The notes under the pieces are model-generated. The model made no database searches. It saw only the letters and a program-made list of their open reading frames with translations, and had not been told where the DNA came from. The translations under genes and the position numbers were made by a program. Below, one piece after another: positions 2,043 through 22,561 of a DNA stretch of 37,803 nt; position 1 is the stretch's first letter, and each line of letters opens with the position of its first letter. Source of the stretch: Kofleriaceae bacterium (GTDB lineage: Bacteria; Myxococcota_A; Polyangia; Haliangiales; Haliangiaceae); assembly GCA_022842285.1 (NCBI GenBank), contig JALHPV010000033.1, positions 1 to 37,803 on the forward strand, in the 5' to 3' direction.

Positions 2043-3203
2043 CTAGCCGAGGGGCAGCGAGACACCGAAGCGAGTGCCGTGGGGGCCCGTGTCGAGGCGG
2101 ATCGCTCCGCCGTGCAACGCGACGAGGCTATGCACGATCGACATCCCCAGTCCCGTGCCGCCCTCTTTGGTCGAGAAGAACGGCTCGAAGATCCGTGCTC
2201 GCACCGCCTCCGGGATTCCCGGGCCGCTGTCGTGAACCTCGAGCTCGATCGAGTTGTCGGTCGTCATGAGCTCGACGACGACCTCGCCACCGGCGAGCAC
2301 GACCTCGATCGCGTTGCGAATCAGATGATCGGCGACCTGCGTGAGCTTGGGCCCGTCGACGTTGGCCACGAGCGTCTCTCGCCCGGGGACGAACCGCAGC
2401 GTCGCGCCGCGATCTTCGGCCGCCGGCCGCTGCTCGTCGCAGACGGCGGCGACGAGCTTGACCACGTCATGCGACAGAGGATTCAGCCGCACGGGCTGGG
2501 CGAAGGTCAGGAAGTCGGTGAGGAGGCTGGTCAAGCGAACGAGCTCGGACTGGGCGAGCTCGACCGGCGTGACGAGTCGCTCCTCCGCGTCTGCGCGTCG
2601 CAGCCGCCGCTCCACGAGCTCGAGCTGGAGCTTGGCCGCGTTGAGCGGATTTCGGATCTCGTGCGCGAGCCCGGCGGTCAAGGTCTGGAGGGAGACGAGC
2701 CGCTCGTCGCGCTCCTCGCGGGTCCGTTCGCTCTGGGAGGGGCGATGCGTGAGCTGGTAGTGGCGGACGAGACAGGCGAGCTCGAGATCGAGCAACCGAT
2801 TCACCGAGTCCACGAGCGCCCACGCTTCGGCCGGCGGATAGAGCGCGGCGATCCGGTGGTGGTAGGCCATGCGGACGACGTGGATGAACGTGACCGTCCG
2901 GTGCTGCGGCCACGCCTCGGGGATGTGGCGTGCTCCGGCGTGGAGGCGCCCGACGTAGAAGGCGTGGTCATGCGGCCCGCGGAGGCTCGTTTCGAGCCAT
3001 TCGATCACGCCTTCGCGGATGCGAGACACCTGCTCGGGCGTGGCGACGCTCGGCGCGGCATCAGGGGCGTTCGCGAGCAGCTCGAGGTAGCGGTCGGCGA
3101 TCGCCGGGAGATCGGGCCGGAGTCGCTCGAGGAGCCGCGCCACTCGCGTCGTATCCTCGCTGTCGAACCGGATGAAGCCGAGCAGCTCGGCGATCGAGTT
3201 CAT
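2043..3203 (-). CDS. Globin-coupled sensor histidine kinase
   Basis: A 386-residue soluble kinase. Residues 1-150 match the protoglobin/globin-coupled-sensor pattern: an N-terminal helix with FDSEDTTRVARLLERLRP, DRYLELLAN, GVIEWLETSLRGPHD, then YVGRLHAGARHIPEAW, where H93 aligns with the proximal haem-ligand His of the family block RLRIGRVH. HisKA follows with the H-box LAHEIRNPLN (phospho-acceptor H181), then a HATPase with N-box DHLIRNAIE (292-300), G1 DSGPGIP and G2 GGTGLGMSI. No membrane segment is seen. The ATG overlaps the stop of the NtrC gene (ATGA), so the pair is translationally coupled and is almost certainly a cognate two-component system. The frame is open far upstream, but that part only shadows the NtrC gene. 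Haem binding and ligand (O2, NO, CO or redox) are inferred. Confidence 0.88.
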   Translation of the reverse strand: MNSIAELLGFIRFDSEDTTRVARLLERLRPDLPAIADRYLELLANAPDAAPSVATPEQVSRIREGVIEWLETSLRGPHDHAFYVGRLHAGARHIPEAWPQHRTVTFIHVVRMAYHHRIAALYPPAEAWALVDSVNRLLDLELACLVRHYQLTHRPSQSERTREERDERLVSLQTLTAGLAHEIRNPLNAAKLQLELVERRLRRADAEERLVTPVELAQSELVRLTSLLTDFLTFAQPVRLNPLSHDVVKLVAAVCDEQRPAAEDRGATLRFVPGRETLVANVDGPKLTQVADHLIRNAIEVVLAGGEVVVELMTTDNSIELEVHDSGPGIPEAVRARIFEPFFSTKEGGTGLGMSIVHSLVALHGGAIRLDTGPHGTRFGVSLPLG

Positions 3204-4600
3204 GTCTCGTCCGCGACGGCGCCCTTGCGGACGACCTCGATCTCGGACCGGGGCGCCTCGCTGTACTGGTGGAGCCGGTACTGGATCGTTCGCACGCTGA
3301 TTCCCAGCACGTCGGCCGCCTTGGAGGTCGAGCCCCCGGTGGACTTGAGCGTCTCGAGGATCGCGTAGCGTTCGATGTCGGCGAGCGTCGCGCCCGGGAT
3401 GATGGGAGCTCCGGTCGGGGTGGTGCGGGGGGTGACGCTCGGCGGCAAGAAGCGCGGATCGATCAGCGGCCCGGGGGCGAGCACGACCGCGCGCTCGATC
3501 GCGTTCTCGAGCTCGCGAACATTGCCGGGCCAATCGTAGGAGGCGAGGAGGTCCACCGTCTCGGGCGTGAAGCCCTCGAGCTGCTTGCCGTTCTCCTTCG
3601 TGTACTTGTCGAGAAAGAACTTCGCGAGCGCGGGCACATCGGTGCGGCGCTCGCGGAGCGGTGGCATCTCGAGGTTCACCACGTTCAGCCGATAGAACAG
3701 ATCTTCGCGGAAGCGGCCGGCCGTGACCTCGGCAGGGAGGTGGCGGTTCGTGGCGGCGATGATGCGGACATCGACGCGCAGGGTCTGGGTGCCACCCACC
3801 CGCTCGAACTCGTGCTCCTGGAGGAAGCGCAGCAGCTTCACCTGGATCGACGGCGAGATCTCTCCGATCTCGTCGAGGAACAGGGTGCCGCCGTCGGCGA
3901 GCGTGAAGCGTCCGTCCTTGCGCCCCATCGCGCCCGTGAAGGAGCCCTTCTCGTGACCGAAGAGCTCGCTCTCGAGGAGCGACTCTGCCAGGGCTGCGCA
4001 ATGCAGCTTGATGAACGGTCCGTTCGCCCGGGGCGATCGCTGGTGGATCGCATTGGCGACGAGCTCCTTGCCGGTGCCGCTCTCGCCGGTGATGAGCACG
4101 GTCGCCTTGCTCGGGGCGACCTGATCCACGACCTCGAACACCCGCTGCATCGGCGGGCTCATGCCGACGATGTTCGACGGTGCCACCCGATCGCGCACGC
4201 GCTGACGCAGCTGACGCGTCTCCCGCCGCAGGGCCTGCGTCTCGAGGACCTTGTCGAGCACGAGCAAAAGCTCGTCGAAGTCGATCGGCTTCGTGAGGTA
4301 GTCGGCCGCTCCCGACCGCATCGCCTCGACCGCGGTGGCCACGGCGCCGAACGCCGTCATCACCACCACGGCCGTCCCATCGTCGGCTCCACGGACCTTC
4401 TTGACGAGCTCGATGCCATCCATCCCCGGCATCTTGAGATCCGTCACCACGACGTGCGGGGAGAACGACTCGACCTTGCCGAGGGCCTTGAATGCGTCGG
4501 CGGCCATCTCGACCTCGAATCCCTCGTCGCGGAGGAGCTCGGCCAGGGCGGTGCGAGCGTTCGCCTCATCATCGACCACCAGAATCCGACCAGCACGCAT
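3200..4600 (-). CDS. NtrC-family sigma54 response regulator
   Basis: A 466-residue regulator. It has a receiver domain (VVDDE at 8-12, phospho-acceptor D54 in TDLKMPG, K104 in LTKP), an AAA+ sigma54-activation domain with Walker A GESGTGKE (172-179), the sigma54-contact loop as GSFTGA (219-224; usual GAFTGA) and Walker B GGTLFLDE, and a Fis-type helix-turn-helix (about 405-447, GGSTSKAADVLGISVRTIQYRL). The start is Met before RAGRILVVDDE at 4600; upstream Met codons would add an unconserved Arg-rich stretch running into the operator region. Its stop overlaps the globin-kinase ATG. A sigma54-type promoter lies 29 nt before the start, and three dyads lie just upstream of that, which suggests autoregulation. 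It is the probable master regulator of the stress island. Confidence 0.93.
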   Translation of the reverse strand: MRAGRILVVDDEANARTALAELLRDEGFEVEMAADAFKALGKVESFSPHVVVTDLKMPGMDGIELVKKVRGADDGTAVVVMTAFGAVATAVEAMRSGAADYLTKPIDFDELLLVLDKVLETQALRRETRQLRQRVRDRVAPSNIVGMSPPMQRVFEVVDQVAPSKATVLITGESGTGKELVANAIHQRSPRANGPFIKLHCAALAESLLESELFGHEKGSFTGAMGRKDGRFTLADGGTLFLDEIGEISPSIQVKLLRFLQEHEFERVGGTQTLRVDVRIIAATNRHLPAEVTAGRFREDLFYRLNVVNLEMPPLRERRTDVPALAKFFLDKYTKENGKQLEGFTPETVDLLASYDWPGNVRELENAIERAVVLAPGPLIDPRFLPPSVTPRTTPTGAPIIPGATLADIERYAILETLKSTGGSTSKAADVLGISVRTIQYRLHQYSEAPRSEIEVVRKGAVADET

Positions 4601-4613
4601 GAGCGACGACTGT

Positions 4614-4629
4614 AGCGATTCCCGTGCCG
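4614..4629 (-). promoter_or_regulatory. Putative sigma54 (-24/-12) promoter of the NtrC gene
   Basis: On the minus strand it reads CGGCACGGGAATCGCT, against consensus TGGCACG-N4-TTGCW. GGCACG is perfect, GG-N10-GC spacing is exact, and the -12 box has one mismatch. The first base is 29 nt before the ATG, close to the 28-nt spacing seen across the island. Predicted transcription begins almost at the start codon. Confidence 0.6.
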
Positions 4630-4634
4630 CCCCA

Positions 4635-4703
4635 CGCGCAGGTTTGGCGCATCGCCGCCCGCAAGTTTTGCGCCACTGGTGCATGGCGCGCAAACCTTGC
4701 GCG
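4635..4703. promoter_or_regulatory. Triple dyad operator/enhancer upstream of the NtrC gene
   Basis: Three 17-bp near-palindromes share the form CGCGCAA-N3-TTGCGCG. The site at 4687-4703 is perfect (7-bp arms, spacer acc). The site at 4658-4674 is CCCGCAA-gtt-TTGCGCC. The site at 4635-4651 is CGCGCAG-gtt-TGGCGCA. They fill the 105-bp gap between the hybrid-kinase stop and the NtrC start, directly upstream of the -24/-12 element at 4614-4629. They are plausible enhancer sites for the NtrC protein acting on its own gene. Related sites occur elsewhere in the island. Confidence 0.55.
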
Positions 4704-4705
4704 GT

Positions 4706-22159: not shown

Positions 22160-22176
22160 ACGACGGCGTCACCAGC

Positions 22177-22192
22177 AGCACGAAGCAGGCCA
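22177..22192 (-). promoter_or_regulatory. Putative sigma54 promoter of the OsmC gene
   Basis: The minus strand reads TGGCCTGCTTCGTGCT: TGGC, exact GG-N10-GC spacing, GTGCT in the -12 box. It lies 33 nt before the ATG at 22159, for a predicted leader of about 7 nt. Confidence 0.45.
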
Positions 22193-22251
22193 CGACGATG
22201 GCCGCCAGGACGCTCCAGCACGCTTCAGATCGAGCGCCGCCGCTCGATGTC

Positions 22252-22536
22252 CTACTTGTGTGCGCGGCTATTCAGGTAGATCTGCATGCGGCGCAGGAAC
22301 GTCTCGTCGAACCCGCCTCCCGCGTTGCCGAGGACCGTGTCGATTCCGCACATCGGGCACAGGGCCGTCTGCTTGGCGTCGATCCAGCGGGTGACCTGCG
22401 CCGGGGTGAAGCGGCGGAAGCACGAGAAACACGCACAGCTCTCGCTGCCGAGGACCTCGACCCGATTCTTCGACGCCCGGGCCAAGGCCGCGACGTACGT
22501 CTGGTTCGCGGCCGGGGATGCGTCGGTCGTGATCAT
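22252..22536 (-). CDS. Small zinc-ribbon-like cytoplasmic protein
   Basis: A 94-residue protein with two CxxC pairs (C36/C39 in CFSCFRRF and C60/C63 in CPMCGID), arranged as C-F-x-C-x-x-x-F-x-P...W-x-D-x-x-x-T-A-x-C-P-x-C-G-I-D. I recognise this arrangement as a widespread, uncharacterised family of small cytoplasmic proteins; zinc binding is inferred. It lies between the tol operon and the OsmC gene on the same strand. A weak -24/-12-like element precedes it. Confidence 0.82.
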   Translation of the reverse strand: MITTDASPAANQTYVAALARASKNRVEVLGSESCACFSCFRRFTPAQVTRWIDAKQTALCPMCGIDTVLGNAGGGFDETFLRRMQIYLNSRAHK

Positions 22537-22545
22537 GAAACACCC

Positions 22546-22561
22546 TACACGGTTCGTGCCG
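22546..22561 (-). promoter_or_regulatory. Weak sigma54-like element of the zinc-ribbon gene
   Basis: The minus strand reads CGGCACGAACCGTGTA: GGCACG perfect, but the -12 box is GTGTA, lacking the C. It lies 25 nt before the ATG at 22536. Confidence 0.3.

Follow-up and report, generated by a model that had tools for sequence, protein, structure and literature searches.

The closest described relative of the locus reported here is NmpRSTU of Myxococcus xanthus, a hypoxia system that includes a protoglobin kinase and sigma54 promoters and has universal stress protein (USP), CBS and haemerythrin genes among its targets (PMC6211767, PMC11841059). According to the model proposed for it, the protoglobin kinase NmpU phosphorylates the receiver (REC) domain of NmpS in oxygen, which switches NmpS off, and when oxygen is absent NmpS phosphorylates NmpR, which acts on sigma54 promoters via paired GCGCA-N5-TGCGC sites; in five of the seven promoters bound, the two sites are separated by 14–15 bp, and the NmpR targets are CBS, USP, cbb3 oxidase and hemN-haemerythrin genes (PMC6211767, PMC11841059). 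A second relative, AfGcHK, is the globin kinase of Anaeromyxobacter sp. Fw109-5 (PMC8697598; PDB 5ohe). It passes phosphate to an NmpT homologue (PMC6211767), is O2-activated, with an active six-coordinate form and an inactive five-coordinate Fe(II) form, and has a tyrosine, Tyr45, important for O2 recognition (PMC8697598). The window analysed here is the whole of contig JALHPV010000033.1 (C33, 37,803 bases) from the 7.9-Mb draft genome of a Kofleriaceae bacterium (550 contigs; completeness 96.65%, contamination 4%). It was found to carry a globin-coupled histidine kinase and its regulator beside an island of stress and redox genes, and this locus is probably the Nmp oxygen-response system in a direct-wired form.

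The nearest named comparators of this organism here are myxobacteria, and the Nmp comparison was made through sequences of Corallococcus sicarius, in which R, U, T and S lie in one row, standing in for M. xanthus. The minus-strand gene at 3200..4600 encodes a 466 aa response regulator with the domain order REC-AAA(sigma54)-Fis (Pfam). It matched the NmpR beside nmpUTS in C. sicarius (61%, 574 bits; next paralogue 430), and the reverse search with Corallococcus NmpR returned the same gene from the Kofleriaceae genome (60%, 578 bits versus 413 for the next), so that by reciprocal best match the gene is an NmpR orthologue. Since NmpRSTU has been published (PMC6211767, PMC11841059), with AfGcHK as a related kinase (PMC8697598), the claim of the original prediction that the system is undescribed falls, while its proposal of a sigma54-based hypoxia and redox response keeps its support from the sequence. 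The new part is the kinase domain on the globin sensor, predicted to be NmpS-type instead of NmpU-type.

The globin kinase gene (2043..3203, minus strand) encodes 386 aa with a protoglobin domain (about residues 3–152), a long linker and an NmpS-type HisKA-HATPase part (Pfam). Its proximal H93 and phospho-acceptor H181 are invariant in the 15 kinases aligned (A1), and its ATG at 3203 overlaps the stop codon of the NtrC-type gene in an ATGA, which bears out the translational coupling that had been predicted. The kinase is the one protoglobin match in its own genome. The original prediction had left out the start of nmpR at 4600 (listed at 4693), two upstream kinases in the locus, the NmpR-type dyads and the lost distal tyrosine of the globin.

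The locus resembles NmpRSTU in the type of its NmpR orthologue, the protoglobin sensor, the sigma54 promoters with paired GCGCA-N5-TGCGC sites, the CBS, USP and haemerythrin-type genes, and the autoregulatory arrangement of sites. Unlike in NmpRSTU, the globin is on an NmpS-type kinase, and NmpU is a globin on a U-type kinase; extra REC-histidine kinase (REC-HK) and PAS-hybrid kinases are present, and the island is large and contiguous. A separate S-type NmpS was lacking among the typed best matches in this draft genome, as was NmpT (a REC-REC phosphate sink) among the 40 adjoining open reading frames (ORFs) of the window scanned by Pfam, the whole genome not having been searched for it.

The descent of the kinase domain speaks for direct wiring. 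Compared with 14 genomes that have a separate S-type kinase, the window kinase domain scored 119–188 bits against the S-type kinase and 51–90 against the globin kinase. The NmpU-type globin kinases (n = 15; this label and ‘direct’ were assigned by us) formed one clade, with support of 98/99 in a tree of 43 rows and 100/99 in a second of 55 rows, from which three of six outgroup kinases were dropped and which included 10 of the 20 newly fetched order loci. An S-type kinase lies within the same stretch in 13 of these 15 and on another contig in G094, and none was seen in the stretch read for G066 (L140). The S rows numbered 14, one of which, L126, was labelled REC though no receiver was detected within its ORF by the script; Pfam recognised a partial receiver, the remainder of which is encoded immediately upstream in a different frame. 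The window kinase and the other direct kinases fell on the NmpS side of the trees, most of them inside NmpS clades, and the f21/f49 group of direct kinases formed its own branch at the base of that side. Placement of the window kinase and that of G085 within the NmpU clade was disfavoured by the approximately unbiased (AU) test (p = 0.021), for which the groups were named after the tree had been seen.

At 16 positions that discriminate U from S, the window kinase agrees with the S kind at 15 and with the U kind at none. Among the S-type positions is the stretch after the phospho-His, which we take, from kinase-specificity work, to help choose the partner. When Corallococcus NmpS was searched against the Kofleriaceae genome, the kinase part of the globin kinase gave the top match (165 bits; next 145). 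Typing was possible for four of the following five matches, which had 5–8 S and 3–4 U residues of 15, and one (C154) is untyped; the reference set of 14 NmpS kinases had 12–15 S and 0–1 U, and the window kinase 14 and 0. Because of the trees, the S-type residues and this search, the NmpS receiver appears to have been replaced by the globin in the window kinase. Direct wiring of this kind was unreported in the open-access literature searched, which did not include supplementary synteny figures such as S2 Fig of PMC6211767.

In the mechanism proposed, a protoglobin fused to an NmpS-type kinase and translationally coupled to NmpR would phosphorylate NmpR directly, as kinase-domain descent and specificity residues suggest. 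Phosphorylated NmpR would bind paired GCGCA-N5-TGCGC sites and drive the sigma54 promoters of nmpR and of the USP/CBS/haem-c/redox island, as the motifs suggest, and, from dyads only, perhaps also the upstream kinase pair. This pair consists of a PAS-PAS-HisKA-HATPase-REC hybrid kinase (4706..6655) and a REC-HisKA-HATPase kinase (REC-HK, 6630..7739), both on the minus strand (Pfam), so that the order from 7739 to 2043 is REC-HK, hybrid kinase, NtrC-type regulator and protoglobin kinase. The pair stands beside NmpR and the globin kinase also in G285, G297 and G290, and partly in G284 and G295; recurring thus in the genus, it may feed a second input to the locus. Since the pair recurs and USP or CBS genes occur in 13 of 20 order loci, the arrangement is not an accident of one genome.

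The same pair raises the alternative of an ordinary Nmp relay, in which NmpS and NmpT lie elsewhere or are replaced by REC-HK and the PAS-hybrid and the globin kinase is NmpU. It gains from the position of both kinases in one operon-like run, their recurrence in the genus, the NmpS domain order of REC-HK and the draft state of the genome, with its 550 contigs and the completeness and contamination given above. In addition, the product of C4:11363-12439 matches NmpS over both receiver and kinase (34%, 125 bits), and the rooting of the trees is weak (77/64 with 55 rows; the outgroup not one clade with 43 rows); both points count against direct wiring. On the other side stand the kinase descent with its 15 of 16 S-type residues and the NmpS search, in which the globin kinase came first, REC-HK reached 85 bits and the other typed candidates were not S-like (5 S and 4 U for C4:11363-12439). 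Moreover, G085 and several relatives carry a globin kinase and NmpR without the pair in the stretch read. REC-HK was rejected as NmpS on its score, 85 bits to Corallococcus NmpS versus 165 for the globin kinase, and on the trees. We regard a relay as quite unlikely, and the shortened, direct wiring is well supported by sequence.

If the wiring is direct, the sign of the response has to be accounted for. With one inverting step gone from the direct form, the hypoxia output would be kept if the coupling were inverted, and for that output the direct kinase should be active with unligated haem, the reverse of AfGcHK. AfGcHK and the window kinase have a homologous globin domain, proximal His and phospho-His; they differ in the spacing from the globin to the phospho-His, D147 to His183 being 36 residues in AfGcHK and the corresponding distance 42 in the window kinase. 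This linker was measured from the globin DLELA motif to the phospho-His, and kinases missed by the first pattern were remeasured with a wider one. It is 36 residues in all 15 NmpU-type kinases, as it is in AfGcHK by alignment numbering and the published His183; direct kinases without PAS have a linker of 42 residues in the window, in G085 and in 14 other loci of the family, of 37 in five and of 31 in sixteen. A change of linker length can invert the response of engineered kinases, although in one such system the inverted variants spanned several registers (PMC6798134, PMC11164954). The shifted globin-to-DHp linker could be what inverts the coupling, and shifted linkers or an inserted PAS may hint that the oxygen response is flipped. 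The argument from register is post hoc, and the sign of the signal stays an inference, which weighs against the proposed mechanism.

The wiring could also be direct with the sign unchanged, so that ligand-bound globin activates and the island is induced by oxygen, NO or CO. AfGcHK, active as six-coordinate and inactive as five-coordinate Fe(II) (PMC8697598), speaks for this, and changes in the distal pocket could favour another gas. The gene content, however, resembles the CBS, USP and haemerythrin regulon of M. xanthus NmpR (PMC11841059), and the linker departs from that of the O2-activated class in three direct lineages without PAS. An unchanged sign is rather unlikely on this balance.

The globin of the window is itself unusual. 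Tyr45 of AfGcHK aligns with Leu40 of the window globin, and tyrosine is found in all 23 compared globins that have a residue there (24 compared), including the genus-mates; the distal tyrosine is no requirement for haem binding as such. Several observations weigh against a working oxygen sensor: the globin departs from the family consensus at 16 positions, the distal one among them, its branch in the globin-domain tree is 3.2 against a median of 0.5, and the structure model of the kinase is weak around H93. That model is of moderate quality, with a predicted local distance difference test (pLDDT) value of 75 and a predicted template modelling (pTM) score of 0.45; pLDDT is 72–93 over the block of residues 11–90 and 53 over residues 91–100. 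The Protoglobin score is 48.7 bits, compared with 116–137 in six relatives. Because of the strong divergence and the weak model around H93, haem or O2 binding may be lost, and in this species the globin may prefer another ligand or be losing its sensing function. These same features, namely leucine for the distal tyrosine, pocket replacements, the low Protoglobin score and the long branch, would suit a decaying or haem-free globin with the PAS and REC kinases governing the locus. The open frame, the kinase motifs, the retained proximal H93 and the well-modelled block over residues 11–90, though not over 91–100, argue otherwise, and we consider such decay unlikely. The fold search did not inform on the sensor, the 50 matches listed of 735 being histidine-kinase entries. 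The globin-domain tree was also tried as a pointer to the globin donor and set aside, the domain being too short and the window branch too long.

The predicted regulatory sites connect the island with NmpR. Sigma54-like sites were scored with a hand-entered matrix, at thresholds of at least 10 and at least 12. Positions 1-22561 contain 12 sites at the lower threshold and 6 at the higher, whereas a control of 398,020 bases from the same genome predicts 4.4 and 1.2. With coordinates read by eye, 11 sites point towards a gene start, though for those at 1985, 7834, 10906 and 18959 this holds only if the true start lies within the listed ORF; the twelfth, at 4660, is the second one before the same gene as that at 4614. 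The -24/-12 motifs predicted at nine promoters and before the NtrC gene are to that extent plausible.

Before nmpR, the sigma54-like site CGGCACGGGAATCGCT (4614..4629, minus strand) is preceded by NmpR-type dyads at 4636-4650 (one core mismatch), 4659-4673 and 4688-4702, the last two spaced 14 bp, as in M. xanthus. In the divergent promoter region, a dyad pair at 7767 and 7798 (7767..7812, 16 bp apart) adjoins a plus-strand site at 7834..7849 before a haem-c lipoprotein gene, and no sigma54-like site of at least 10 faces the minus-strand kinase pair (4706-7739). The SDR promoter (plus strand) combines a dyad at 8628-8642 with a sigma54-like site at 8701-8716. A sigma54-like site at 12771-12786 precedes the CBS-pair gene (12321..12758). 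On the plus strand, the dyad CCGCAACGTTTGCGC (13238-13252) and the sigma54-like site TGGCGCGGACGTTGCT (13462-13477) are more than 200 bp apart, and imperfect dyads at 14061, 14091 and 14115 lie with a site at 14146-14161 before the run of a membrane ORF, USP, CBS, USP and USP. Published-type NmpR site pairs with sigma54 sites are in this way predicted in the window.

Dyads with an intact GCA-N5-TGC core and at most one outer mismatch number 11 in the window, all within 1-22561 and none in 22562-37803; in 200 shuffled versions the mean count was 2.0 and the highest 6. Dyads with at most one mismatch numbered 14, versus 3.7 expected from the control of the same genome. Composites of sigma54-like site (score at least 10) and dyad occur six times in the island (five promoters, with two sites before nmpR) against 0.45 expected from the same 398,020 bases, and are absent from the remainder of the window. 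Among 29 dyad pairs from 22 other Nmp loci (398,290 bases), 14 are spaced 13–16 bp, versus 1.9 under a flat expectation, and none of three pairs is so spaced in the own-genome control. The tight form CGCAA-N3-TTGCG is found in 11 copies genome-wide, four of them in this contig (binomial 1.7e-7), a figure that is partly post hoc because the form was picked after the window sites had been seen.

Some of the site data weigh the other way. The published 15-mer GCGCA-N5-TGCGC alone was rejected as a genome-wide mark of the regulon, with 83 matches versus 90 for the reversed control; three of the seven tight sites outside the contig fall inside ORFs; and the two perfect GCGCA-N5-TGCGC dyads at 11003 and 11033 (11003..11047, 15 bp apart) lie within the HHH-domain ORF at 10775-11788, where the nearest sigma54-like site is poor (9.9). 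In these data only the tight form, the spacing and the composites discriminate probable regulon sites. That all the sites are chance products of a GC-rich genome gains something from the lack of genome-wide enrichment of the exact 15-mer and from dyads with two mismatches, which are barely enriched (40 versus 27.9 per 22.5 kb). The shuffles, the control for dyads with at most one mismatch, the genome-wide count of the tight form and the spacing conserved in other loci make chance very improbable.

Of the outside tight sites, one precedes a REC and kinase pair and another is some 570 bp ahead of a GGDEF gene. At L036 (G000:C169, 1203-2737) a tight dyad is followed by a gene for a protein with three CBS stretches and then by one with Cytochrome_CBB3 (c-type) domains (Pfam), an order of multi-CBS and c-type cytochrome genes that recalls the M. 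xanthus NmpR regulon. At L037 (G000:C297, 2054-2087) a tight site and a second dyad, 4 bp apart, stand before a REC-PAS-HK-REC hybrid kinase gene, which may be a further signalling gene of the regulon.

Predicted direct globin-to-NmpR pairs recur in relatives. The best-hit loci of 282 genomes of the phylum (L003-L029) include 22 full-length globin kinases, all with the S-type phospho-His motif and 21 with an adjacent NmpR-type gene; because resemblance to the window kinase was the criterion for choosing these loci, the counts are no frequency. Within the order, 27 of 35 genomes (this one included) matched at 1e-40. From the 26 others, 22 loci were read (20 fetched, G085 and G046), and G293, G298, G308 and G309 were left out. 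Globin, S-type motif and NmpR-type gene were present in all 20 fetched loci, one of which runs off the end of its contig. In six of these loci, more than 130 extra residues lie between globin and kinase, a region that is PAS by Pfam in the four scanned and also in one Nannocystis kinase. A scan of named genomes was diluted by kinase patterns; it gave 80 loci, of which only Nannocystis exedens and Corallococcus sicarius were taken further. The suggestion that related islands be examined for loss of both motif and kinase was followed up, and related loci retain the kinase and the dyads. The full island beside the kinase is less general: the 13 order loci noted above have USP or CBS genes, but the stretch read around the kinase of G085 contains neither the island nor the kinase pair.

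A single origin of the direct kinases was rejected (AU p = 0.0026), again with groups named once the tree had been seen. For its 23 direct rows, the larger tree calls for five label changes, of which well-supported branches force at least four; the window lineage lies in one NmpS clade (96/95), and the PAS-form order-mates and Nannocystis lie in another (99/94). Any direction given to the globin swaps is tentative, the root being weak (77/64). We put forward, tentatively and with slightly less than even confidence, that a double-negative oxygen phosphorelay has repeatedly collapsed to a one-step system by substitution of the globin for the NmpS receiver, the hypoxia output being kept via an inverted sensor-kinase coupling that a shift in the register of the coiled-coil linker brings about. 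At L209 (G295:C310, 3823-5589) a second kinase with a partial globin match and without HExRNPL (by script) lies beside a normal direct globin kinase and is possibly a degenerate or regulatory partner.

DosS/DosT-DosR of mycobacteria, the analogy first drawn for this locus, has a GAF haem domain and a LuxR-type regulator. The likeness is functional only, in that a haem sensor kinase stands over USPs and other hypoxia genes; Pfam shows a protoglobin and a sigma54 AAA-Fis regulator in the window. The lxa locus of Burkholderia cenocepacia, which low oxygen induces, resembles the island in being a cluster that includes USP genes. The USPs of the mycobacterial DosR regulon are mentioned in PMC11841059. 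The comparison with Nmp connects this large stress island, from a lineage represented by a draft genome, with an oxygen-response regulon already described, and presents the same regulator and DNA sites in two wirings. Natural relay and direct kinases with discrete linkers bear on how the sign of a kinase is set, and re-set on gain or loss of an inverting step, and NmpR-site regulons can be predicted from sequence outside Myxococcaceae.

The island genes originally listed are all present by Pfam, NCBIfam or CXXCH motifs, two of them with matches below the NCBIfam cut-offs. On the plus strand lie a haem-c lipoprotein gene with CXXCH at 128 and 246 (7838..8623; true start probably 7862 or 7868), an SDR oxidoreductase gene (8772..9536; Pfam, NCBIfam) and a small haem-c lipoprotein gene with one CXXCH at 48 and a weak cytochrome c551 match (9634..9951); the lipobox of both lipoproteins was read by eye. 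A tandem USP gene (9964..10839, minus strand) follows, and beyond the HHH-domain ORF are those for a VIT1-family metal transporter (11794..12324) and the CBS-pair protein, both on the minus strand. A plus-strand Flavodoxin_5 gene (13490..14053) is HemG-like (menaquinone-dependent protoporphyrinogen oxidase) at 103 bits, with the cut-off of 142 not reached. The plus-strand run at 14174..16702 comprises a small hydrophobic ORF (14174), USP (14362), CBS (14786), USP (15206) and tandem USP (15812). Further on are genes for a haemerythrin-domain protein (18426..19046, minus; true start probably about 18905), a three-BON-domain protein (18904..19683, plus; true start probably 19030), an AdhP-like zinc alcohol dehydrogenase (19779..20816, plus; 343.5 bits, cut-off 344) and an OsmC protein (21632..22159, minus).

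Rfam and tRNA scans of the window were empty. Inside the island, 17043-18398 encodes a kinase-like protein with a Pfam HATPase match only, its N-terminal half without assignment, and a C-terminal extension. Directly past the island, TolB-, ExbD- and TolQ-like genes (22586-25727) form a Tol-Pal-type cluster that is apparently unrelated, and farther outside it lies a gene for an FHA-domain sigma54 activator (29643-31145) with a PD40 protein downstream. At the other end, homologues of the epimerase-like and acyltransferase pair at 493-1985 adjoin a relay-type Nmp locus at L132 (G102, 14861-17046), and the pair may for this reason be part of the Nmp neighbourhood.

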